Part shown: piece by piece, positions 34,742-45,631 of the stretch | How the letters are laid out: the number at the start of each line of letters is the position of its first letter | Numbering within the stretch: the first letter of the stretch is position 1 | Source of the DNA: Niastella vici | GTDB taxonomy: Bacteria; Bacteroidota; Bacteroidia; Chitinophagales; Chitinophagaceae | Assembly: GCF_002077945.1 (NCBI RefSeq) | Contig: NZ_LVYD01000051.1 | Location: 1-64,000 of the forward strand | Length of the DNA stretch: 64,000 nt | Direction of reading: 5' to 3' | The notes under the pieces: model-generated | Database searches by the model: none | The model's input: the letters and a program-made list of their open reading frames with translations, nothing else | What the model was told of the DNA's origin: nothing | Translations under genes and position numbers: made by a program

Positions 34742-35020
34742 TCATGCCACAACATCCTGCCACTCTTGCATCTTATCTAAAACTGATTTGGCAAAGGGAC
34801 AAAGGGGCACGATCTTGATGTTATGGGTGCGGGCATATTCAACGGCAGTTTGTACCAGTTGTTTGCCAACGCCTTTTCCGGCCAGGGAATCATCTACTTC
34901 AGTGTGTTCAATGATCATTTTGTTAGGGGCCATCGTATAAACCATTTCGGCCAAAATAGCGCCATCCTGCCCTACATAGAACATACCTTTCCCTTGTAAT
35001 TGTTTGTGTTGTATTACCAT
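34742..35020 (-). CDS. small GNAT-like acetyltransferase (YjdJ type)
   Basis: 92 residues of the Gcn5-related YjdJ group. Signature segments are LAEMVYTMAPNKMIIEHTEVDDSLAGKGVGKQLV, with the acetyl-CoA loop GKGVGK, and IVPLCPFAKSVLD at the end. The acceptor substrate is not known. It ends 6 bp from the pdxJ stop codon on the opposite strand. Confidence 0.9.
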   Translation of the reverse strand: MVIQHKQLQGKGMFYVGQDGAILAEMVYTMAPNKMIIEHTEVDDSLAGKGVGKQLVQTAVEYARTHNIKIVPLCPFAKSVLDKMQEWQDVVA

Positions 35021-35203: not shown

Positions 35204-35235
35204 TTTGGTCAAATCATTTTTGCAAAGCACTTTTG
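35204..35235 (+). promoter_or_regulatory. trp operon promoter
   Basis: TTTG (35204-35207), 20 bp, then CACTTTTG (35228-35235), one mismatch from TAnnTTTG. Transcription would begin about 35241, just before the leader peptide ATG at 35244. Confidence 0.6.
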
Positions 35236-35243
35236 TACACGTA

Positions 35244-35306
35244 ATGAAAAAGCAATTACAAAATAATCATTGGTGGTGGCATACAAACTCTAAAAGGGGC
35301 TTGTAA
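35244..35306 (+). CDS. trpL: trp operon leader peptide
   Basis: A 20-codon frame (MKKQLQNNH, then WWW, then HTNSKRGL) with three consecutive TGG codons at 35271-35279, immediately upstream of a terminator and trpE. Tandem Trp codons in a short leader are the signature of ribosome-mediated transcription attenuation. The last codons GGC TTG lie in a segment (GGGGCTTG, 35296-35303) that can pair with the 5' arm of the terminator, so ribosome position could switch between the two structures. A longer frame in the same phase starting at 35004 lacks support. Confidence 0.85.
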   Translation: MKKQLQNNHWWWHTNSKRGL

Positions 35307-35369
35307 GCTGCTGTTGATGTTTTATTAAACACCATATTCAGGCCCCGATTTAATCGGGGCTTTTTTTTT
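35296..35369 (+). terminator. trp attenuator with possible antiterminator
   Basis: Terminator stem GCCCCGATT (35342-35350) / AATCGGGGC (35352-35360) is followed by nine T (35361-35369). The segment GGGGCTTG (35296-35303) can pair with CAGGCCCC (35339-35346) over 8 bp, including one G-T wobble, which would block the terminator. A ribosome stalled at the Trp codons leaves it free; a ribosome reaching the stop codon at 35304 covers it. The pairing is seen in sequence, the mechanism is inferred. Confidence 0.8.
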
Positions 35370-35393: not shown

Positions 35394-36827
35394 ATGAAAA
35401 AGATAAACATTACCACCAATTGTAAAAAGCTGCTGGCCGACGTATTTACACCGGTAGGCATTTACCTCCGGGTTCGCGACCGCTTTCGCGACACGGTGCT
35501 CCTCGAAAGCACCGATCACCACGCAGCCGATAACAGTTACTCTTTCATTTGTATCAATGCCATTGCCGGTATTGAGATCACTTCTTCAAAAAGCATCGAA
35601 TTCAAATTGCCAGGCCTGCCTCCCGAAAAAACAGCCATCTCAAACAGCGCCGAAGTGCCCGAAAAGCTGTGGGAATTCATGCAGCGCTTTGAAGTAATCC
35701 CGCCAGACGGGGGCAGCCGCGAAACAAAATTTGCCCAGGGTTTATATGGCTATACTACCTACGATGCCGTACAGTTCTTCGATACCATTCAACTGGGTGT
35801 TGAGCGCAAATCGCCCGAAGGCAAACCCGTTGTTCCCCTTATGCGGTATCGCCTTTACCAATATGTTATTGCCATCAACCATCATAAAGATGAGCTGTTC
35901 ATATGTGAGAACACCATGCCGGGTGTTGAAAGCGAAGGGGCTGTTGTTGAATCGTTGATCCGCAGCAAGGATGTTCCGGTATATCCTTTTAAAACAAAAG
36001 GTGCCGAAGCATCGAACATGACCGACGACGATTATATGAATATGGTGAAGAAAGGGATCCAGAGCTGCCTGCGTGGCGATGTGTTCCAGATCGTACTGAG
36101 CCGGTGTTTTGAGCAGGGCTTTACCGGTGATGAATTTGCTGTATACCGCGCATTGCGCAGCATCAACCCTTCACCTTACCTGTTCTTTTTCGATTATGGC
36201 GATTACAAGCTGATGGGTTCTTCACCCGAAGCGCAGCTCATTATGAAGAACGGAAAGGCGGTGGTTCACCCTATTGCGGGAACCTTTAAACGCACCGGCG
36301 ATGATGAAACCGATCAGCGCGAAGCAGAACGCCTGTTGCACGATGCCAAGGAAAACGCCGAACATGTAATGTTGGTCGACCTGGCCCGTAACGACCTGAG
36401 CCGCCTTTGCGATGAAGTAAAAGTTGATCACTATCGCGAAGTGCAATATTATTCGCACGTGATACACCTGGTGAGCGAAGTGAGTGGTAAAGTGCGTGCC
36501 GGCAGCAATCCGTTTGCCCTGCTGGCCAAAACATTCCCTGCCGGTACATTGAGCGGCGCACCCAAATTCAAGGCCATGGAACTGATCGATGCTTTTGAGC
36601 CTACAGCCAGAAGCTATTATGGTGGCGCCATCGGTTTTATGGGTTTCGACGGACAGTGCAATCATGCTATTATGATCCGCACGTTCATGAGCCGCCAGAA
36701 CAAACTGATATACCAGGCCGGCGCCGGTATTGTAGCTGCCAGCAAACCTGAAAGCGAATTACAGGAAGTAAATAATAAACTGGGCGCATTGAAAAAAGCG
36801 ATCGTTTTTGCCCAGGAGATAATTTAA
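35394..36827 (+). CDS. trpE: anthranilate synthase component I
   Basis: Converts chorismate to anthranilate using ammonia supplied by TrpG; first committed step of tryptophan synthesis. 477 residues, full length. The chorismate-binding core shows QIVLSRCFEQ, HPIAGTFKRTGDDE and AGTLSGAPKFKAMELID. The N-terminal part contains the expected ESTDHHAADNSYSFICI region. A feedback site is likely but not individually identifiable here. It follows the attenuator and is 66 bp before trpG. Confidence 0.97.
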   Translation: MKKINITTNCKKLLADVFTPVGIYLRVRDRFRDTVLLESTDHHAADNSYSFICINAIAGIEITSSKSIEFKLPGLPPEKTAISNSAEVPEKLWEFMQRFEVIPPDGGSRETKFAQGLYGYTTYDAVQFFDTIQLGVERKSPEGKPVVPLMRYRLYQYVIAINHHKDELFICENTMPGVESEGAVVESLIRSKDVPVYPFKTKGAEASNMTDDDYMNMVKKGIQSCLRGDVFQIVLSRCFEQGFTGDEFAVYRALRSINPSPYLFFFDYGDYKLMGSSPEAQLIMKNGKAVVHPIAGTFKRTGDDETDQREAERLLHDAKENAEHVMLVDLARNDLSRLCDEVKVDHYREVQYYSHVIHLVSEVSGKVRAGSNPFALLAKTFPAGTLSGAPKFKAMELIDAFEPTARSYYGGAIGFMGFDGQCNHAIMIRTFMSRQNKLIYQAGAGIVAASKPESELQEVNNKLGALKKAIVFAQEII

Positions 36828-36893: not shown

Positions 36894-37472
36894 ATGAACA
36901 GTATGAAGATCCTTGTTTTCGATAATTACGACTCCTTTACCTACAACCTGGTACACCTGGTTGAAAAGATCCTGCATCAGAAAGTAGATGTATACCGCAA
37001 CGACCAGATCCCATTGGAAAATGTAAAGGCGTATGATAAGATCATTTTATCACCAGGCCCCGGCATACCCGAAGAAGCGGGTTTGTTGCTGCCATTGATA
37101 AAAGAATATGCCGCTACCAAATCTATCCTCGGCGTTTGTCTGGGGCACCAGGCCATTGGTCAGGCATTTGGCGGAAAGCTGGTTAACCTTAGCACCGTGT
37201 ATCATGGCGTGGCCACACCGGTGCAGATCATTAATCGCGATAAACCATTGTTCAACGGTTTGCCCGATGAATTTGAAGTAGGCCGTTATCACAGCTGGGT
37301 GGTTAGTGAAGAAGGGTTTCCAAAAGAGTTAACCATCACTGCCCGCGATGCCAATAATTTCATTATGGCATTGCAGCATAAAAAATATGATGTACAGGGT
37401 GTGCAGTTTCATCCGGAGAGTGTGTTAACACCAAGGGGAGAAGACATCTTACGTAACTGGCTAAAGGTCTGA
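36894..37472 (+). CDS. trpG: anthranilate synthase component II (glutamine amidotransferase)
   Basis: Supplies ammonia from glutamine to TrpE. 192 residues of a class I glutaminase with the oxyanion strand LSPGPGIPEEAG, nucleophile GVCLGHQAIGQ and the His/Glu pair in VQFHPESVLT, all intact. The ATG at 36903 (MKILVFDNYDSFTYN) is an equally good start. It may also serve folate synthesis as PabA. A hairpin and a broken gene separate it from trpD. Confidence 0.96.
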   Translation: MNSMKILVFDNYDSFTYNLVHLVEKILHQKVDVYRNDQIPLENVKAYDKIILSPGPGIPEEAGLLLPLIKEYAATKSILGVCLGHQAIGQAFGGKLVNLSTVYHGVATPVQIINRDKPLFNGLPDEFEVGRYHSWVVSEEGFPKELTITARDANNFIMALQHKKYDVQGVQFHPESVLTPRGEDILRNWLKV

Positions 37473-37545: not shown

Positions 37546-37991
37546 ATGGCAAGCTTTAAGTACGGAGAAATAACTGAAAAAATTATCAGTGCATCATTTA
37601 GAGTACACAATACCCTGGGCAATGGGTTCAGGAAGTGATTTACCAGCGGGCGTTGGAATTGGAATTGAAAGCAATAGGTATGATTTATACCAGGGAATTT
37701 GAAATGCCAATATATTATTTAGATCAACAAATAGGTACAAGAAGAGTTGATTTTTTAATTGATGGAAAAATAAGTGTAGAGTTGAAAGCAATAATTAAAC
37801 TTGAAGATGTGCATTTTGCGCAGGCAATGAATTATCTGGAAGCATACAATCTTGAAATAGGCCTGTTAATCAATTTTGGCAGCAAAAGATTGGAATTTCA
37901 CAGATTCACAAATAAAAAATTTAATGATAAACTTATGCAACATTCAACGATATCCAACCTTTCCCATAAATCCCCAAAATCCCAGTTCTGA
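37546..37991 (+). pseudogene. GxxExxY family protein gene, frameshifted
   Basis: The first frame (from ATG 37546) gives MASFKYGEITEKII... NTLGNGF and then hits TGA at 37636. The second frame, from about 37630 on, gives the rest (EVIYQRALELELKA... YLDQQIGTRRVDFLIDGK... VELKAI) of a typical GxxExxY protein, a PDDEXK-like family. The sequence GGGTTCAGGAAGTG lacks one base relative to an expected GGGTTCCAGGAAGTG, so a one-base deletion in a C run is the likely lesion. The gene runs to 2 bp before trpD. Sequencing error is an alternative explanation. Confidence 0.85.
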
Positions 37992-37993
37992 CA

Positions 37994-38986
37994 ATGAAAA
38001 AGATTCTACAATATTTGTTCGAACATAAAACCCTCAGCCGCGAACAGGCTAAAGATGTTTTATTGAACATAGGTAAAGGAACTTACAATGAACATGAAGT
38101 AACGGCCTTTATGACTGTATACCTCATGCGCAGTGTAACCATCGAGGAACTGCAGGGATTTCAGGATGCCCTGCTCGAACTGTGTGTAAAAGTTGACCTC
38201 AACGGTTTCCCCGTAATTGATATTGTAGGAACCGGCGGCGATGGAAAGAATACATTCAATATTTCCACCCTCAGTTGTTTTATAGTGGCCGGCACCGGGC
38301 AAAAGGTGGCCAAGCATGGCAACTATGGTGCTTCCTCAATCAGCGGTGCTTCCAACGTAATGGAACAGCTGGGGTATAAATTCAAGAACGACCCCGACCG
38401 GCTGAAGAAAGAAGTAGACGAGGCCAATATCTGTTTTTTACATGCGCCCTTGTTTCACCCGGCATTGAAGACCGTAGGCCCAATCAGAAAGAACCTCGGC
38501 ATGCGTACCTTCTTCAATATGCTTGGTCCCATGGTGAACCCGGCCTTTCCGCCATTTCAGTTGGTAGGTGTATATAATCTTGAAATGGCGCGCATCTATA
38601 ATTACCTGTTACAACTTACCGATAAAGCCTTTACCATTATTCACGGGTTAGATGGATATGATGAAATTTCACTGACCAACGATACCAAGGTGATCACCAA
38701 TAATGGCGAAAAGATCATGACGCCTGAGCAGTTGGGAAAACGCATGGTAAACCCAACGGATATCTATGGCGGTAACACTGTGGAAGAAGCAGCTAAAATA
38801 TTCATAAAGATCCTGAAGGGCGAAGGAACCTGGGCGCAAAATGCGGTGGTGCTCGCCAATGCGGCCATGGCCCTGCATTGCACCGGCAACTTTAAAACTT
38901 ATGACGATGCATATGCAAAGGCTGTAGATAGTTTAGAGAGCGGTAAGGCAAATGAAGCCCTGAAGAAACTGGTTGCATTACAATAA
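37994..38986 (+). CDS. trpD: anthranilate phosphoribosyltransferase
   Basis: Transfers phosphoribosyl from PRPP to anthranilate. 330 residues, full length. Motifs include DIVGTGGDGKNTFNIST (PRPP loop), AKHGNYGASSISGASNVME and HAPLFHPALKTVGPIRKNLGMRT. It starts 2 bp after the stop of the frameshifted GxxExxY gene, so its translation could be affected by that lesion. trpC follows closely. Confidence 0.97.
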   Translation: MKKILQYLFEHKTLSREQAKDVLLNIGKGTYNEHEVTAFMTVYLMRSVTIEELQGFQDALLELCVKVDLNGFPVIDIVGTGGDGKNTFNISTLSCFIVAGTGQKVAKHGNYGASSISGASNVMEQLGYKFKNDPDRLKKEVDEANICFLHAPLFHPALKTVGPIRKNLGMRTFFNMLGPMVNPAFPPFQLVGVYNLEMARIYNYLLQLTDKAFTIIHGLDGYDEISLTNDTKVITNNGEKIMTPEQLGKRMVNPTDIYGGNTVEEAAKIFIKILKGEGTWAQNAVVLANAAMALHCTGNFKTYDDAYAKAVDSLESGKANEALKKLVALQ

Positions 38987-39008
38987 TTCAAGATACTCGA
39001 TTCCCAAT

Positions 39009-39794
39009 ATGAATATTCTCGATAAAATAATAGCGGTCAAACGTAAGGAAGTAGCTGAAAGAAAGGCCCAAACACCCGTCAACGCGCTGGAAAAACAGGA
39101 ATTGTTTACACGTTCGGTATTATCGCTTGGCGGGTTTTTGCTCGATGAAACCAAAACCGGCATTATTGCCGAGTTTAAAAGAAAGTCGCCGTCAAAAGGT
39201 ATCATCAACGGCGCGGCGGATGTAATTGAAGTTACCTCGGCGTACGCCCGGTATGGCGCATCCGGATTATCGGTACTCACCGACGAAAGTTTTTTTGGTG
39301 GCAGTACGGCCGATCTTATAAAAGCGCGGGTGAACCAGGTGCCCATTCTGCGCAAGGATTTCATGATCGATGAATACCAGATCGTAGAAGCCAGGGCCAT
39401 GGGGGCCGATGTGATCCTCCTGATCGCTGCCTGTTTAACCCCGGCCGAAGTAAAACGGCTGGCAGCCTTTGCCGCTTCTTTACAACTGGAAGTATTGCTC
39501 GAGCTGCATGCCGAAGAAGAGCTGGAACATATTTGTGATGAAACAAAGCTGGTAGGCATTAACAACCGTAACCTGAAAACATTTGAAGTAGATATTGAGC
39601 GAAGCCTGCGAATGGCGGAGCGCATCCCGGCCGATAAAATAAAAATTGCCGAAAGCGGCATCAGCTCGGTGGAAAATATCAGGCTTTTTAAAAAACATAA
39701 CTTTCGTGGGTTCCTGATAGGGGAAAATTTTATGAAAGAAGCTCAACCAGGCGAAGCATTTCATAAATTCATAGCGCAACTGGAAACAAAGTAA
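39009..39794 (+). CDS. trpC: indole-3-glycerol phosphate synthase
   Basis: Closes the indole ring from CdRP. 261 residues from the ATG at 39009 (MNILDKIIAVKRKEV); the frame extends further back into the end of trpD but the family N-terminus fits 39009. TIM-barrel motifs: AEFKRKSPSKG, VPILRKDFMIDEYQ, LLELHAEEELE, GINNRNLKTFEVD and IAESGISS, covering the catalytic Lys and Glu residues. Confidence 0.97.
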   Translation: MNILDKIIAVKRKEVAERKAQTPVNALEKQELFTRSVLSLGGFLLDETKTGIIAEFKRKSPSKGIINGAADVIEVTSAYARYGASGLSVLTDESFFGGSTADLIKARVNQVPILRKDFMIDEYQIVEARAMGADVILLIAACLTPAEVKRLAAFAASLQLEVLLELHAEEELEHICDETKLVGINNRNLKTFEVDIERSLRMAERIPADKIKIAESGISSVENIRLFKKHNFRGFLIGENFMKEAQPGEAFHKFIAQLETK

Positions 39795-39844: not shown

Positions 39845-40483
39845 ATGCGAGTAAAAGTTTGCGGTATGACATTACCTGAACAGCTGGAACAACTCGGCGG
39901 TTTGGGCGTCACCTTTGCCGGATTTATTTTTTATCCAAAAAGTCCGCGCTATGTTTTCAAAGGCCTTACCACCAGCCAGATCAGGAAAGAGAACGGCATC
40001 AACAAAGTGGGCGTTTTTGTAAATGCTTCTATTGAAGAAGTGTTGCACATGGTTGATGAATGCCGCCTGCACATGGTACAGTTACATGGCGATGAAACCC
40101 CGAAGTATTGTGAAAAGATCGCCGATTATGTATCGGTAGTAAAAGCGTTCAGGATCAGTGAGAATGATAATATTGAATGGATGGTAAAACCGTATATGGA
40201 TGTATGTGATATGTTCATGTTCGATACAATGGGAGCAGGATACGGTGGTACCGGTAAAAAGTTCAACTGGAATATGCTGAAAGACGCTTCCATTGGTAAA
40301 CCTTTTTTCCTGAGCGGTGGTATTGAACCGGGCGATGAAGACCAACTGAATGAATTTGCCAAACTGCCGATCGGCAAAGCCTTGTTCTCGGTAGATATCA
40401 ACAGCAAATTTGAGATCGGTCCGGGTATAAAGGATATGGCAAAGGTGAAGGAGTTTGTGACCAGGTTGAACAGCCGCTATTAA
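39845..40483 (+). CDS. trpF: phosphoribosylanthranilate isomerase
   Basis: Amadori rearrangement of PRA to CdRP. 212 residues, TIM barrel. VKVCGMT carries the catalytic Cys; VQLHGDETPKYC and FMFDTMGAGYGGTGKKFNW follow, the second with the catalytic Asp. It ends with the phosphate loops FLSGGIEPG and FSVDINSKFEIGPGIKD. It is separate from trpC, not fused as in some bacteria. Confidence 0.96.
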   Translation: MRVKVCGMTLPEQLEQLGGLGVTFAGFIFYPKSPRYVFKGLTTSQIRKENGINKVGVFVNASIEEVLHMVDECRLHMVQLHGDETPKYCEKIADYVSVVKAFRISENDNIEWMVKPYMDVCDMFMFDTMGAGYGGTGKKFNWNMLKDASIGKPFFLSGGIEPGDEDQLNEFAKLPIGKALFSVDINSKFEIGPGIKDMAKVKEFVTRLNSRY

Positions 40484-40493
40484 ATTTTATGCT

Positions 40494-41012
40494 ATGATAC
40501 AGATACGAACGGCCCTTGAAACAGATCTGGAAGCCATGCTGGAAATATACAACGACGTTATTGTAAATACGACGGCTGTATACGATTATAAACCGCATAC
40601 GATGGAAATGCGGCGCCAGTGGTGGCGTACCAAACAGGAGCAGGGCTTTCCGGTATTTGTAGCAGAAGAGGATGGCCGTATAGTAGGATTTAGTTCAATA
40701 GGCCCCTTTCGTGCCTGGGCGGCGTATAAATATTCTGTTGAAAATTCAGTATATGTCGCAGCTGATCAACGCGGCAAGGGTATTGGAAAAAAATTGATCG
40801 CGCCCCTGATCCGGGCTGCAGAACAATTGAACATGCATACCATTATCGCGGGCATCGATGCTACCAATGAAGCCAGCATCATGCTGCACCGGAGCCTGGG
40901 TTTTGCTGAAGTAGCCCGGTTTAAACAGGTGGGTTACAAATTTGGCCGCTGGCTCGATCTTACCTTTATGCAGTTGCTGCTGAAAACACCGCAGCAACCG
41001 GTTGAAGAGTAG
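40494..41012 (+). CDS. GNAT family N-acetyltransferase (phosphinothricin-acetyltransferase type)
   Basis: 172 residues. The pattern IRTALETDLEAMLEIYNDVI, VFVAEEDGRIVGFSSIGPFR, VYVAADQRGKGIGKKLI (acetyl-CoA loop) and GIDATNEASIMLHRSLGF is the signature of the Pat/Bar-like subgroup, which acetylates amino-acid analogues. It is embedded in the trp operon, 11 bp after trpF. A role in amino-acid detoxification is plausible but inferred from family only. Confidence 0.93.
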   Translation: MIQIRTALETDLEAMLEIYNDVIVNTTAVYDYKPHTMEMRRQWWRTKQEQGFPVFVAEEDGRIVGFSSIGPFRAWAAYKYSVENSVYVAADQRGKGIGKKLIAPLIRAAEQLNMHTIIAGIDATNEASIMLHRSLGFAEVARFKQVGYKFGRWLDLTFMQLLLKTPQQPVEE

Positions 41013-41038: not shown

Positions 41039-41758
41039 ATGATAAAATTAGGCATCATGGGTGATTTTGTTGCTTCGAATGCTACGCATATTGCCAACAA
41101 CGAAGCATTTGATCACGCCGCCAGCCGGTTTGGCAAAGCTTTTCAGTACGAATGGGTAGCAACCGACCGCATTGAACCCGAATTTGAGACCATCATTCAT
41201 TCGTACCAGGGATTACTGATAGCACCCGGTAGCCCGTATAAAAGCATGTCGGGTGTATTGAAGATCATTGAATACGCACGAACGCACCAGCTACCTGTAT
41301 TAGGCACCTGCGGTGGGTTTCAGCATATGATCATCGAGTTTGCCCGTAATGTACTGGGTATAACCGATGCAGAGCATGCAGAATCAAATCCGTACGCATC
41401 ACGCCTGGTAATAAACCCGTTGAGCTGTTCGCTGAAGGGCCAGCAACTCGATATTGAAATAATAGAAAAAGATTCATTGGTATATTCCATTTTTAATACC
41501 AATACGATCACTGAAAATTATTATTGCAATTTCGGATTGAACCCCGAATACCAGGAACAGATCCATAAAGCCGGTTTTGCCATGGTAGCCAGTGATAAAC
41601 ATAATGAAGCGCGGATCATGGAGCTGAAAGGCCACCCTTTTTATGTGGCCACGCTTTTTGTTCCGCAGGTGAATTCAAATTATGAAAAACCGCATCCGAT
41701 TTTAATAGCACTGCTTAAAGCCATGGAACAGTACAAAGAAGAAGGGGTTAGGGCGTAA
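41039..41758 (+). CDS. CTP synthase C-terminal region-related protein
   Basis: 239-residue class I glutaminase-like protein resembling the C-terminal domain of CTP synthase (LGIMGDFVASN; IAPGSPYKSMSG; HPFYVATLFVPQV). The nucleophile is kept (GTCGGFQH, Cys about 101). However, the segment that in PyrG reads TQFHPEF is here TLFVPQV, so the catalytic His and Glu are replaced by Val and Gln and glutaminase activity is doubtful. As I recall, relatives in databases include members with selenocysteine at the nucleophile. It lies between trpF-GNAT and trpB; its role is unknown. Confidence 0.85.
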   Translation: MIKLGIMGDFVASNATHIANNEAFDHAASRFGKAFQYEWVATDRIEPEFETIIHSYQGLLIAPGSPYKSMSGVLKIIEYARTHQLPVLGTCGGFQHMIIEFARNVLGITDAEHAESNPYASRLVINPLSCSLKGQQLDIEIIEKDSLVYSIFNTNTITENYYCNFGLNPEYQEQIHKAGFAMVASDKHNEARIMELKGHPFYVATLFVPQVNSNYEKPHPILIALLKAMEQYKEEGVRA

Positions 41759-41778: not shown

Positions 41779-43023
41779 ATGACGACAACAACATATCAGC
41801 AACCCAATGCACAGGGGTATTATGGAAAGTTCGGTGGCGCATTCATTCCCGAAATGCTGCACCGCAATGTGGAAGAACTGCGATCGAAATACCTTGATAT
41901 TATTTACGATCCTGCTTTCCAGAAAGAATTCAGGTCCCTGTTACACGATTATGCCGGCCGGCCAACGCCCTTGTACCTGGCGCAACGCCTGAGCAAACAG
42001 TACGGCACAACAATATACCTGAAACGCGAAGACCTGTGCCATACGGGCGCGCATAAAGTGAATAATACTATCGGGCAAATATTGCTGGCCGAGCGGTTGG
42101 GCAAAAAACGGATCATTGCCGAAACCGGTGCCGGACAACACGGCGTGGCTACCGCTACCGTATGTGCGTTGAAAGGTGTGGAGTGTATTGTATATATGGG
42201 CGAAAAGGACATTGAGCGCCAGGCGCCCAATGTGGCCCGTATGAAAATGCTGGGTGCCACGGTAATCCCCGCCACCAGCGGCAGTAAAACCCTGAAAGAC
42301 GCCACCAATGAAGCCATCCGCGACTGGATCAATAACCCCGTCGACACGCATTACATCATTGGCAGTGTGGTGGGGCCGCATCCCTATCCCGATATGGTAG
42401 CCCGTTTTCAAAGCGTGATCAGTGAAGAAATACGGTGGCAGTTAAAAGAAAAAACCGGCAGTGAATTACCAACGCATGTACTGGCCTGTGTGGGGGGCGG
42501 AAGCAATGCAGCCGGTGCTTTTTATCATTTCCTCGAAGAGCCTTCAGTACAATTGGTCGCTGTTGAAGCATCGGGCCATGGCGTACACAGCGGGCTTAGC
42601 GCTGCTACCACCCAGTTAGGTAAACCGGGTGTATTACATGGCAGCAAGAGCCTGGTGATGCAAACCGAAGACGGACAGGTGGTGGAACCGCACAGCATTT
42701 CAGCCGGTTTGGATTACCCCGGTATAGGTCCCCTGCATGCGCATTTATATGATTCGGGCCGGGGCGTCTTTTTGAGCGCTACCGATGAACAGGCCCTGCA
42801 GGCTGCTTTTAACCTGGCCAAACAGGAAGGTATTATTCCGGCGCTGGAAAGCTCTCATGCACTGGCCAGCCTCGAATTCCTGAACCCGGAAAAACCCAAA
42901 CAATCAGAAGCGCCCATACCGCCAAAAGCGCTGTTCACCAAAGATTCGGTAGTAGTGGTTTGTTTAAGCGGAAGAGGTGATAAAGACATGGCTACGTATA
43001 TGAAAGCTATGGAAATGAAATAA
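41779..43023 (+). CDS. trpB: tryptophan synthase beta chain
   Basis: PLP enzyme joining indole and serine. 414 residues, TrpB1 type. [13 protein letters not shown] begins the protein, [11 protein letters not shown] carries the PLP lysine, [13 protein letters not shown] and [10 protein letters not shown] bind substrate and the PLP phosphate, and [10 protein letters not shown] ends it. It forms the alpha2-beta2 complex with TrpA, encoded 84 bp downstream beyond a palindrome. Confidence 0.98.
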
Positions 43024-43107: not shown

Positions 43108-43878
43108 ATGAATCGAATTCAGGAGTTATTCAACCAGAAGAAGGGTAACATATTAAACGTATACTGTACGGCCGGCTTTCCGCAACTGGAAAGCACGGTG
43201 CCGGTAATGAAAGCATTGCAGGATAGCGGGGTAGATATGATAGAGCTGGGAATGCCCTACAGCGATCCGCTGGCCGATGGCCCCGTGATACAGGCAAGCA
43301 GCACCAAAGCACTGGCCAATGGCATGACCATCGCAACCCTGTTTGAACAGTTAAGAGGTTTTCGCCAGCAGGTGTATGTACCGGTTATCTTAATGGGTTA
43401 TATGAACCCTGTTTTACAATATGGGTTTGAAAAGTTTTGTCAGCATGCGGCCGATGCGCCCATTGATGGACTTATTTTACCTGACCTGCCAGAGTATGAA
43501 TTTGAAACAGAGTACGGCCCCATTATACAGCGTTATGGCCTGAACTTTATTTTCCTGGTAACACCTGAAACTTCTGAGGAACGCATCCGCAAACTCGATA
43601 GTTTAAGCACCGGTTTCCTGTACGCGGTTTCTTCTTCTTCTACCACGGGGAAAGACAAGGATATGAACGCCGTGAACGATTTTCTGCAGCGTTTGCAGAA
43701 TATGAAACTCAAAAATCCGGTACTGGTTGGCTTTGGCATCAAGGACAAGCCTACCTTTCAACAGGCATGTGAGCATGCGAATGGAGCCATTATTGGCACC
43801 GCATTCATAAAAGCAATTGAAAATACTGCTGATGTGGAAGGGGCAACCAAAAAGTTTATAACTGATATTAAAAGCTGA
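43108..43878 (+). CDS. trpA: tryptophan synthase alpha chain
   Basis: Cleaves indole-3-glycerol phosphate to indole, which is channelled to TrpB. 256 residues, TIM barrel. The catalytic pair is in DMIELGMPYSDPLADGPVIQ (Glu) and DGLILPDLPEYE (Asp); phosphate is held by GFGIKDKPT and GAIIGTAFIK. hisH starts 12 bp after the stop codon, which joins the trp and his parts of the cluster. Confidence 0.97.
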   Translation: MNRIQELFNQKKGNILNVYCTAGFPQLESTVPVMKALQDSGVDMIELGMPYSDPLADGPVIQASSTKALANGMTIATLFEQLRGFRQQVYVPVILMGYMNPVLQYGFEKFCQHAADAPIDGLILPDLPEYEFETEYGPIIQRYGLNFIFLVTPETSEERIRKLDSLSTGFLYAVSSSSTTGKDKDMNAVNDFLQRLQNMKLKNPVLVGFGIKDKPTFQQACEHANGAIIGTAFIKAIENTADVEGATKKFITDIKS

Positions 43879-44494: not shown

Positions 44495-45631
44495 ATGATA
44501 ATACAACCTGTTCCTTTAACCGAAGTGTGGGCCATGCGCCAGGCGGTAATGTACCCGCAGGAAAGTATTTCGTTCGTTCAGCTGGAAGATGATGAGCGGG
44601 GTTTACACTGGGGATTGTATGATGGCGGAGAACTGGTTTCAGTGATCTCGCTGTTCGATAAGGATGGCGCCATACAGTTCAGAAAGTTTGCCACCCGAAC
44701 CAGTCACCAGGGCAAAGGATATGGAACTACCTTGCTGAAACATGTAATGGATTGGGCCCATGCCAATAAAAAAATAAGCATCTGGTGCAATGCCCGGTTA
44801 ACTGCTACCGGTATTTATAAAAAATTCGGTATGCAGGCGGTGGGAAAAACCTGGCAGAAATGGGGGCTTGATTTTATAAAAATGGAAAAACAATTATTGC
44901 AATCAAAGCATATGCAGATCATTCCGGCTATTGATATTATTGATGGAAAATGCGTGCGGCTGACGCAGGGCGATTACGAACAAAAGAAAATATACAATGA
45001 GCATCCGTTGGAAGTGGCCAAAGAATTTGAAGATGCAGGCCTCAAACGCCTGCACCTGGTTGACCTGGATGGTGCCAAAGCAGGCGCTGTAAAGAACTGG
45101 AAAGTGCTGGAGGCCATTGCCGGCAAAACTTCGCTGGTCATTGATTTTGGCGGCGGCATTAAAACTGAAAAGGATGTAAATATTGTATTTGATTCAGGCG
45201 CAGCATTGGCCACCATTGGCAGCCTGGCCGTAAAGAATGAAGAGGAGTTTGTAAAATGGCTGTTGCAATTTGGGGCCGAAAAGTTCCTGCTGGGCGCCGA
45301 TGTAAAAGAGGAGAAGATCACTGTAGGCGGCTGGCTCGAGACGACCAATATTTCGATTTATGATTTTCTGCAAAAGTATGTTGACCATGGCGTGCAACAG
45401 GTGTTTTGCACCGATGTAAGTAAAGACGGTTTGCTGGCCGGTCCGTCGGTTGAGCTGTATAAAAAGATCATTGAACGTTTTCCTTCGTTACATTTCATTG
45501 CCAGCGGCGGTGTAAGCTCCCTGAACGACCTGGAGAGTTTGGACGCTATTGGTTGCAGTGGCGCCATTGTAGGAAAGGCGATCTATGAGAATCGAATATC
45601 CTTAGATGACCTGAAGGTATTCAGCAAGTAG
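44495..45631 (+). CDS. hisA: GNAT acetyltransferase-HisA fusion protein
   Basis: 378 residues in two domains. Residues 1-130 are a GNAT fold ([38 protein letters not shown] with the acetyl-CoA loop, [17 protein letters not shown]). Residues 140-378 are complete HisA, the ProFAR isomerase of histidine synthesis, from [17 protein letters not shown] (Asp8) to [15 protein letters not shown] (second Asp) and IASGGVSS. The frame is continuous with no stop at the joint. The ATG at 44912 could also start free HisA. Confidence 0.93.

Follow-up and report, generated by a model that had tools for sequence, protein, structure and literature searches.

The trp leader of Escherichia coli carries two Trp codons and three competing hairpins ahead of trpE, and its antitermination works by timing. 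In the Bacteroidetes/Chlorobi group, attenuators were reportedly listed by Vitreschak et al. in 2004. Rfam lists the family RF01692 (Bacteroid-trp; Weinberg et al. 2010, PMC2864571) under the name "Bacteroidete tryptophan peptide leader RNA", and a transcript map of Flavobacterium psychrophilum, a member of the same phylum, gave strong clues of leader-peptide attenuation before amino-acid biosynthesis operons, but the main text of that report never has the word 'trp' (PMC9723704). Two leaders from other phyla also resemble the one described here: the trpL message of Sinorhizobium meliloti starts at the ATG (PMC7298713), and trpL1 of Streptomyces lividans is leaderless and likewise encodes WWW (PMC8079986).

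The present locus lies in a 64,000-nt stretch of DNA from Niastella vici (referred to as the window, positions 1 to 64,000 of contig NZ_LVYD01000051.1), and we consider it highly probable that the leader preceding its trp genes is a classical ribosome-mediated transcription attenuator of the trp operon. This is a known kind of system in a phylum already on record; what our analysis adds is its extension to this family, evidence at the RNA level, and the prediction of a near-leaderless start. A first, sequence-only reading of the window had been unsure how widely trp attenuation is documented in the phylum, and RF01692 places trp leaders of Bacteroidota on record. For the Chitinophagaceae we found no paper on trp attenuation, in a search that was thin on subscription journals.

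Several patterns emerge from a comparison with the described leaders (Table 1). First, the layout is that of the E. coli and enterobacterial trp leader (RF00513), with a tandem-Trp ORF, a protector, an antiterminator and a terminator before trpE, and the window aligns over the whole of that model with 30.2 bits, under the 41-bit gathering score. Secondly, there are departures from E. coli: the Trp codons number three rather than two, the first base of segment 2 lies within the ORF, 8 nt ahead of the stop, the transcript is predicted to begin a mere 4 nt or so upstream of the ATG, and the genome has no TrpR. Thirdly, the window aligns end to end with RF01692, which comes from the same phylum and has a hairpin holding the Trp codons, with 29.2 bits, under the 49-bit gathering score. 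Because the window scores under both cut-offs it falls outside both families by Rfam's rule, and we rejected either Rfam label for it, alike though the layouts are.

Table 1. Features of the trp leader region and neighbouring genes in the window.
Feature	Coordinates	Strand	Basis or remark
GNAT gene, nearest upstream	34742-35020	opposite to trp	
Putative -33 element TTTG, 20-nt spacer to -7 element	35204..35207	+	sequence
Putative -7 element CACTTTTG; consensus TAHHTTTG, C for T at first place	35228..35235	+	sequence
trpL leader ORF, 20 codons + TAA, MKKQLQNNHWWWHTNSKRGL	35244..35306	+	sequence; kept in relatives
Protector (1:2) hairpin	35262..35326	+	minimum free energy fold; RNAalifold consensus from Trp codons on
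Control codons TGG TGG TGG (3 consecutive Trp)	35271..35279	+	sequence; WWW in 66/72 loci, window included
Segment 2, antiterminator 5' strand GGGGCTTG, in leader ORF end	35296..35303	+	sequence; co-varies with terminator arm
Segment 3, antiterminator 3' strand CAGGCCCC, overlaps terminator 5' arm	35339..35346	+	sequence
Intrinsic terminator (3:4), 10-bp stem, 3-nt loop, T9	35340..35369	+	folding and terminator scan
trpE, first attenuated gene	35394..36827	+	best match NCBIfam TIGR00564, 392 bits, below 517.7 cut-off
trpG	36894..37472	+	TIGR00566 over cut-off
trpD	37994..38986	+	TIGR01245 over cut-off
trpC (ORF as listed; true start may be further in)	38973..39794	+	NF001377 over cut-off
trpF	39845..40483	+	13/13 NCBIfam matches phosphoribosylanthranilate isomerase, two of them bifunctional models, all below cut-off
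trpB	41779..43023	+	TIGR00263 over cut-off
trpA	43108..43878	+	TIGR00262 over cut-off

The trpE gene starts 24 nt past the terminator, and trpE, G, D, C, F, B and A all lie downstream of the leader on the same strand. The window TrpE is 62–94% identical to those of 80 relatives, the closest named one being that of Niastella soli (94%; Chitinophagaceae, Bacteroidota). Some other ORFs occur among or near the trp genes: a PDDEXK_3 (PF13366) nuclease-like ORF (37635-37991) separates trpG from trpD, a class-I glutamine amidotransferase-like ORF (41039-41758) lies just before trpB and adjoins a GNAT gene (40494-41012), and the ORF at 44495-45631 reads as an in-frame fusion of a GNAT acetyltransferase domain with HisA.

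Direct reading of the window places the trpL ATG at 35244 and the TAA at 35304-35306, and the 20-codon frame with TGG TGG TGG proposed by the sequence-only reading could be read off base for base between these limits. The 8-bp pairing that it had proposed between GGGGCTTG and CAGGCCCC was likewise recovered on re-reading, with one G.U at 35301/35341, as was a terminator after the leader; folding and the terminator scan give the same stem (35340-35349/35353-35362), followed by the T9 tail at 35361-35369. However, the switch is not the simple antiterminator–terminator pair that had been described, as the protector hairpin had been overlooked. The fold of 35242-35369 consists of protector plus terminator (z -3.07, with 0/200 shuffles as good). 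The 5' strand of the protector contains the Trp codons and UACAAACUC and its 3' strand contains GGGGCUUGUA and GCUGCUG; in the minimum free energy fold GCUGCUG is the partner of the Trp codons, and the GGGGCUUGUA stretch that of UACAA/CUC. Since the GGGGCTTG strand, like the Trp codons, is paired in the protector, the hairpins in competition number three and not two, and in silico the antiterminator excludes both the terminator and the protector. Unguided RNAalifold analysis of 63 loci, including the window, yields the same two hairpins, protector and terminator, with 10 of 22 pairs changed on both sides, six of them in the terminator and four in the upper protector.

Conservation of the Trp codons and of the pairing segment in relatives are two checks that the sequence-only reading had proposed, and both turned out in its favour. 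The relatives were collected by TrpE similarity, giving 81 loci (the window and 80 others). Of these, 73 carry a short ORF with tandem Trp codons (WW) no farther than 550 nt from trpE, and 67 have WWW, with shuffle expectations for the 81 loci of 4.7 and 0.1 respectively; the terminator is present in 72 of the 73 WW-leader loci, window included. The eight non-WW loci are L076, which has WRW, six with one Trp codon, and L080, which has no upstream sequence. Similar leaders with a single Trp codon, in which the GGGG and the CCCC terminator arm are kept, occur in L053, L057, L064, L065 and L067 (NGWH) and in L068 (TGWH); in these six, sensitivity is possibly being lost.

The segment 2/segment 3 pairing is retained while its sequence differs from clade to clade, and here the anatomy, conservation and pairing of the attenuator are read from the nucleotides themselves. 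Over 72 loci the mean energy of each locus's own duplex is -15.0 kcal/mol, compared to -13.0 (sd 0.28) with partners swapped between loci, with 0/5000 permutations matching the real pairing; in the 63 GGGG-type loci, joint pairing at nine positions is seen in 444/567 cells against a permuted 425.4, with 0/2000 as good, although these permutation counts are not strict probabilities because the loci are related. At one core position the pair is G-C in 58, A-T in 3, and G-T in 2 of the 63 loci. The GGGG core is located 13–19 nt past the last Trp codon, with codon phases of 39/17/7 among the 63, and since GGGG occurs in all three phases and complementarity is kept despite sequence change, it is the RNA pairing that is conserved. 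Nine Ferruginibacter/Chitinophaga-type loci have unrelated segments, each of which pairs its own terminator better than the average other one. The segment pair is TGTGTCG with CGACACA in L038 and CTGTGTTACAG with CTGTTACACAG, with one mismatch, in L072. One locus, L044, pairs worse with its own arm than with the average other one. Compared with duplexes made from dinucleotide shuffles of segment 2, the real one is stronger at p<=0.05 for no more than 36 of the 72 loci.

These same features bear on a possible further role in trans of the peptide or of the short terminated RNA, such as has been reported for peTrpL and rnTrpL of the S. meliloti trpL (PMC7298713). Conservation of the peptide does extend past the control codons, to the HTNS residues that follow the Trp run, as such a role might lead one to expect; however, this conserved part tracks the RNA pairing, with Asn codons 3' of the Trp run being AAC in 51 cases and AAT in 7, compared to 46 AAC and 105 AAT on its 5' side, and the tail of the peptide is either RGL or GVL, as set by the phase of GGGG. 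We regard action in trans as extremely unlikely.

The distribution of tandem-Trp leaders was also determined more broadly, using a phylum sample of 198 genomes. A TrpE match was found in 181, and the upstream DNA of 110 was used, window included; these 110 comprise 30 loci plus 80 hand-picked to spread over families, and are a non-random set. Such leaders are common in the phylum, with WW in 85/110 and WWW in 79/110, whereas the controls give 1 and 0 on the reverse strand and 3.7 and 0.05 in dinucleotide shuffles. The leaders (L082-L191) vary in their Trp runs, which include WWW, WWWW, WAWWW, WAWFW and WLW. The region extending about 500 nt from trpE contains no WW leader in 25 of the 110 genomes. 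Short ORFs with WAWFW, WLW, WGW or WTW take its place in six of them, and the other 19 showed no candidate near trpE (families f11, f13, f14, f16, f17, f25, f27, f28 and f29). The segment 2/segment 3 duplex reaches p<=0.05 against segment 2 shuffles in 18 of 63 loci in this sample, and a terminator by the criteria used is absent from 23 of 86 phylum loci with a leader. Because the duplex test is weak outside the family, we claim the detailed mechanism for the Chitinophagaceae only, where the upstream sequences indicate that textbook trp attenuation is widespread. RF01692 finds 0/97 Chitinophagaceae genomes at E<=0.001 with stricter filters, the control Bacteroides ihuae being positive, and in a set of 20 fetched loci it exceeds its cut-off for 6 of the 7 that belong to family f5 and for none of the others. 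A model built from 63 of our loci, which leaves out the nine Ferruginibacter/Chitinophaga-type loci, matches 72 of the 97 genomes when E<=0.001 is required and 60 when the limit is 4e-9, although some of the 97 may be among the building loci and the weak matches include other hairpins.

Could the leader ORF be incidental, its peptide no sensor, and the hairpin simply a constitutive partial terminator or the end of an upstream transcript? Terminator-like sites are no rarity in regions of this kind, and the one found upstream of trpE in the window, with 1.0 expected per shuffle, is unremarkable alone. But incidental ORFs would not account for the excess of WWW leaders in the phylum sample over its shuffle sets, nor for a distance from Trp run to stop that is fixed at 24 nt in 54/72 loci, nor for complementarity that stays though sequence and frame vary; moreover, the nearest upstream gene is on the opposite strand. 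We consider this explanation very unlikely.

Under ribosome-mediated attenuation, the stalling of the ribosome, its timing and the response to tryptophan would follow the precedent of E. coli. A ribosome would begin on the almost leaderless trpL message and, with Trp-tRNA plentiful, would reach the stop codon and cover GGGGCUUG (35296-35303), such that the terminator (35340-35369) would form before trpE. With Trp-tRNA scarce it would stall on the Trp codons and cover the protector strand to about 35283-35289; the GGGGCUUG freed by the stall would then pair with CAGGCCCC once this is made, and RNA polymerase would read into trpE.

A footprint model was applied to 72 loci, in which the RNA is masked as far as 12 nt downstream of the first A-site base (the footprint size is assumed), the transcript is folded before the terminator 3' arm exists, and an antiterminator is scored if at least 5 arm bases are paired to segment 2. 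In this model the antiterminator forms with a ribosome at W1 or W2 in 72/72 loci and at W3 in 66/66, but in 10/72 once the ribosome has reached the stop codon, in accord with the suggestion of the sequence-only reading that a ribosome at the stop would mask the segment and one at the Trp codons would leave it free. Without a ribosome it forms in 18/72, the window being among these 18. The stall gains at least 4 arm bases over the stop in 63/72 loci (fewer than 4 in 9/72) and over the absence of a ribosome in 56/72 (fewer than 4 in 16/72), and starvation and plenty are therefore told apart in the model. For truncated window RNA without a ribosome the antiterminator forms, with 10.2 arm bases paired, so termination of untranslated window RNA is not predicted at this truncated equilibrium; full-length window RNA without a ribosome prefers protector plus terminator. 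At full-length equilibrium the terminator is favoured, by medians, in every state including the stalled one, and antitermination must therefore be kinetic.

Some bacteria control their trp genes without the ribosome, through TRAP, a T-box or a repressor, and tryptophan could in principle be sensed here by a TRAP-like RNA-binding protein, a T-box binding tRNA-Trp, or a repressor. A conserved ORF with consecutive Trp codons would not be needed by any of these, the window has no T-box or other regulatory RNA at the Rfam gathering score, and no TrpR was found in the Niastella genome; we judge sensing of this kind to be extremely improbable. A T-box riboswitch was rejected as a candidate, two tRNAs being the only matches in the window at that score, and TrpR repression as the main control was rejected for want of a TrpR in this genome. 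Among 97 Chitinophagaceae genomes TrpR was found in only one, which is not that of the window; this sole TrpR-like protein is encoded at G235:C237:26104-26352.

Because the nearest upstream gene is on the opposite strand, the trp operon needs its own promoter. Bacteroidota promoters have the form TTTG / TAHHTTTG, with the last G located at -5 in Flavobacterium johnsoniae (PMC6847099), and because they differ in this way a generic sigma-70 scan is uninformative. The promoter implied by the sequence-only reading is plausible, as both elements can be recognized ahead of trpL, and with the G of the -7 box placed at -5 as in F. johnsoniae, the window transcript is predicted to start at about 35240, giving a 5' UTR of about 3–4 nt. 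A YAHHTTTG box has its G 5–10 nt before the nearest leader ATG in 59 of the 73 WW-leader loci (8 nt in 39), compared to 0.76 in shuffles, for which a wider range of 4–14 nt was allowed, and to 4 of 603 ordinary ORFs from the window and the 80 loci. In 62/73 loci the 5' UTR is predicted at 0–5 nt, and in 41 at 3 nt; of the remainder, nine are without a box (including L017, whose upstream DNA amounts to just some 10 nt) and two are at 13–14 nt. Among the 61 loci with a -7 box next to the leader ATG, a -33 TTTG is present 15–22 nt upstream of the box in 54, compared to 4.5 in shuffles, and the box is an imperfect match to the consensus in 47, window among them, in that it starts with C and not T. 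In the phylum sample without the window, TGGTGG leaders are present in 84/109 loci, 39 of them without a box; for the 45 boxed leaders the predicted UTR is 0–7 nt in 27, 12–17 nt in 15, and longer in 3.

Such short 5' UTRs are uncommon in the phylum as a whole: leaderless mRNAs constitute 5.5% in F. psychrophilum (PMC9723704), 5' UTRs shorter than 10 nt constitute 3.7% in B. thetaiotaomicron, and in F. johnsoniae the 5' UTR is >10 nt in 87% and <=10 nt in 13% (PMC6847099). The S. meliloti and S. lividans leaders belong to other phyla with other promoters, and their ends come from data (PMC7298713, PMC8079986), whereas those reported here are predicted, and lie mostly 0–5 nt before the ATG. Our opinion is evenly balanced as to whether a leaderless leader peptide, with the first base of the message 0–5 nt before the ATG, is a conserved rule of the Chitinophagaceae trp attenuator.

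Six further genes were checked in the same genome, and candidate leaders were seen for hisG, ilvD1 and pheA but not for ilvD2, thrA or hom2. Upstream of hisG (L198; C46:33900-36000, minus strand) is a putative histidine leader, MTIFIHIHHHHHTYPCR, whose -7 box has its G 10 nt ahead of the ATG; downstream, a 9-bp inverted repeat, GGGCTTACC/GGTAAGCCC, is discernible by eye, with no clean T-run. Upstream of the PDT (pheA) gene (L203; C46:12600-13900) is a putative Phe/Tyr leader, MIIAKAYGFFYFYFYFYFTSRPGMLLLTTK; judged by eye, the GCCGGGA that it contains is the complement of a TCCCGGC belonging to the 5' arm of the next terminator downstream. A near-leaderless start is predicted for both of these, with 5' UTRs of 5 nt (his) and 1 nt (pheA). 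The third is a putative branched-chain leader, MQKSSINNIISVVTAIIIIVVVVIIPATHGGGV (L193, C45), with a predicted UTR of 15 nt, located about 1.3 kb upstream of an ilvD match and before another ORF.

A trp attenuator at this locus would not surprise specialists, and the noteworthy part is the predicted, conserved near-leaderless start. If this start is indeed the rule, attenuators in at least three phyla, counting those of the alphaproteobacterial and actinobacterial trpL, would have independently taken up 5'-end loading of the ribosome, which would perhaps lock the first ribosome in step with RNA polymerase without a Shine-Dalgarno site. The predicted near-leaderless start would provide a clean test case of timely ribosome loading in organisms in which Shine-Dalgarno sites are hardly used.
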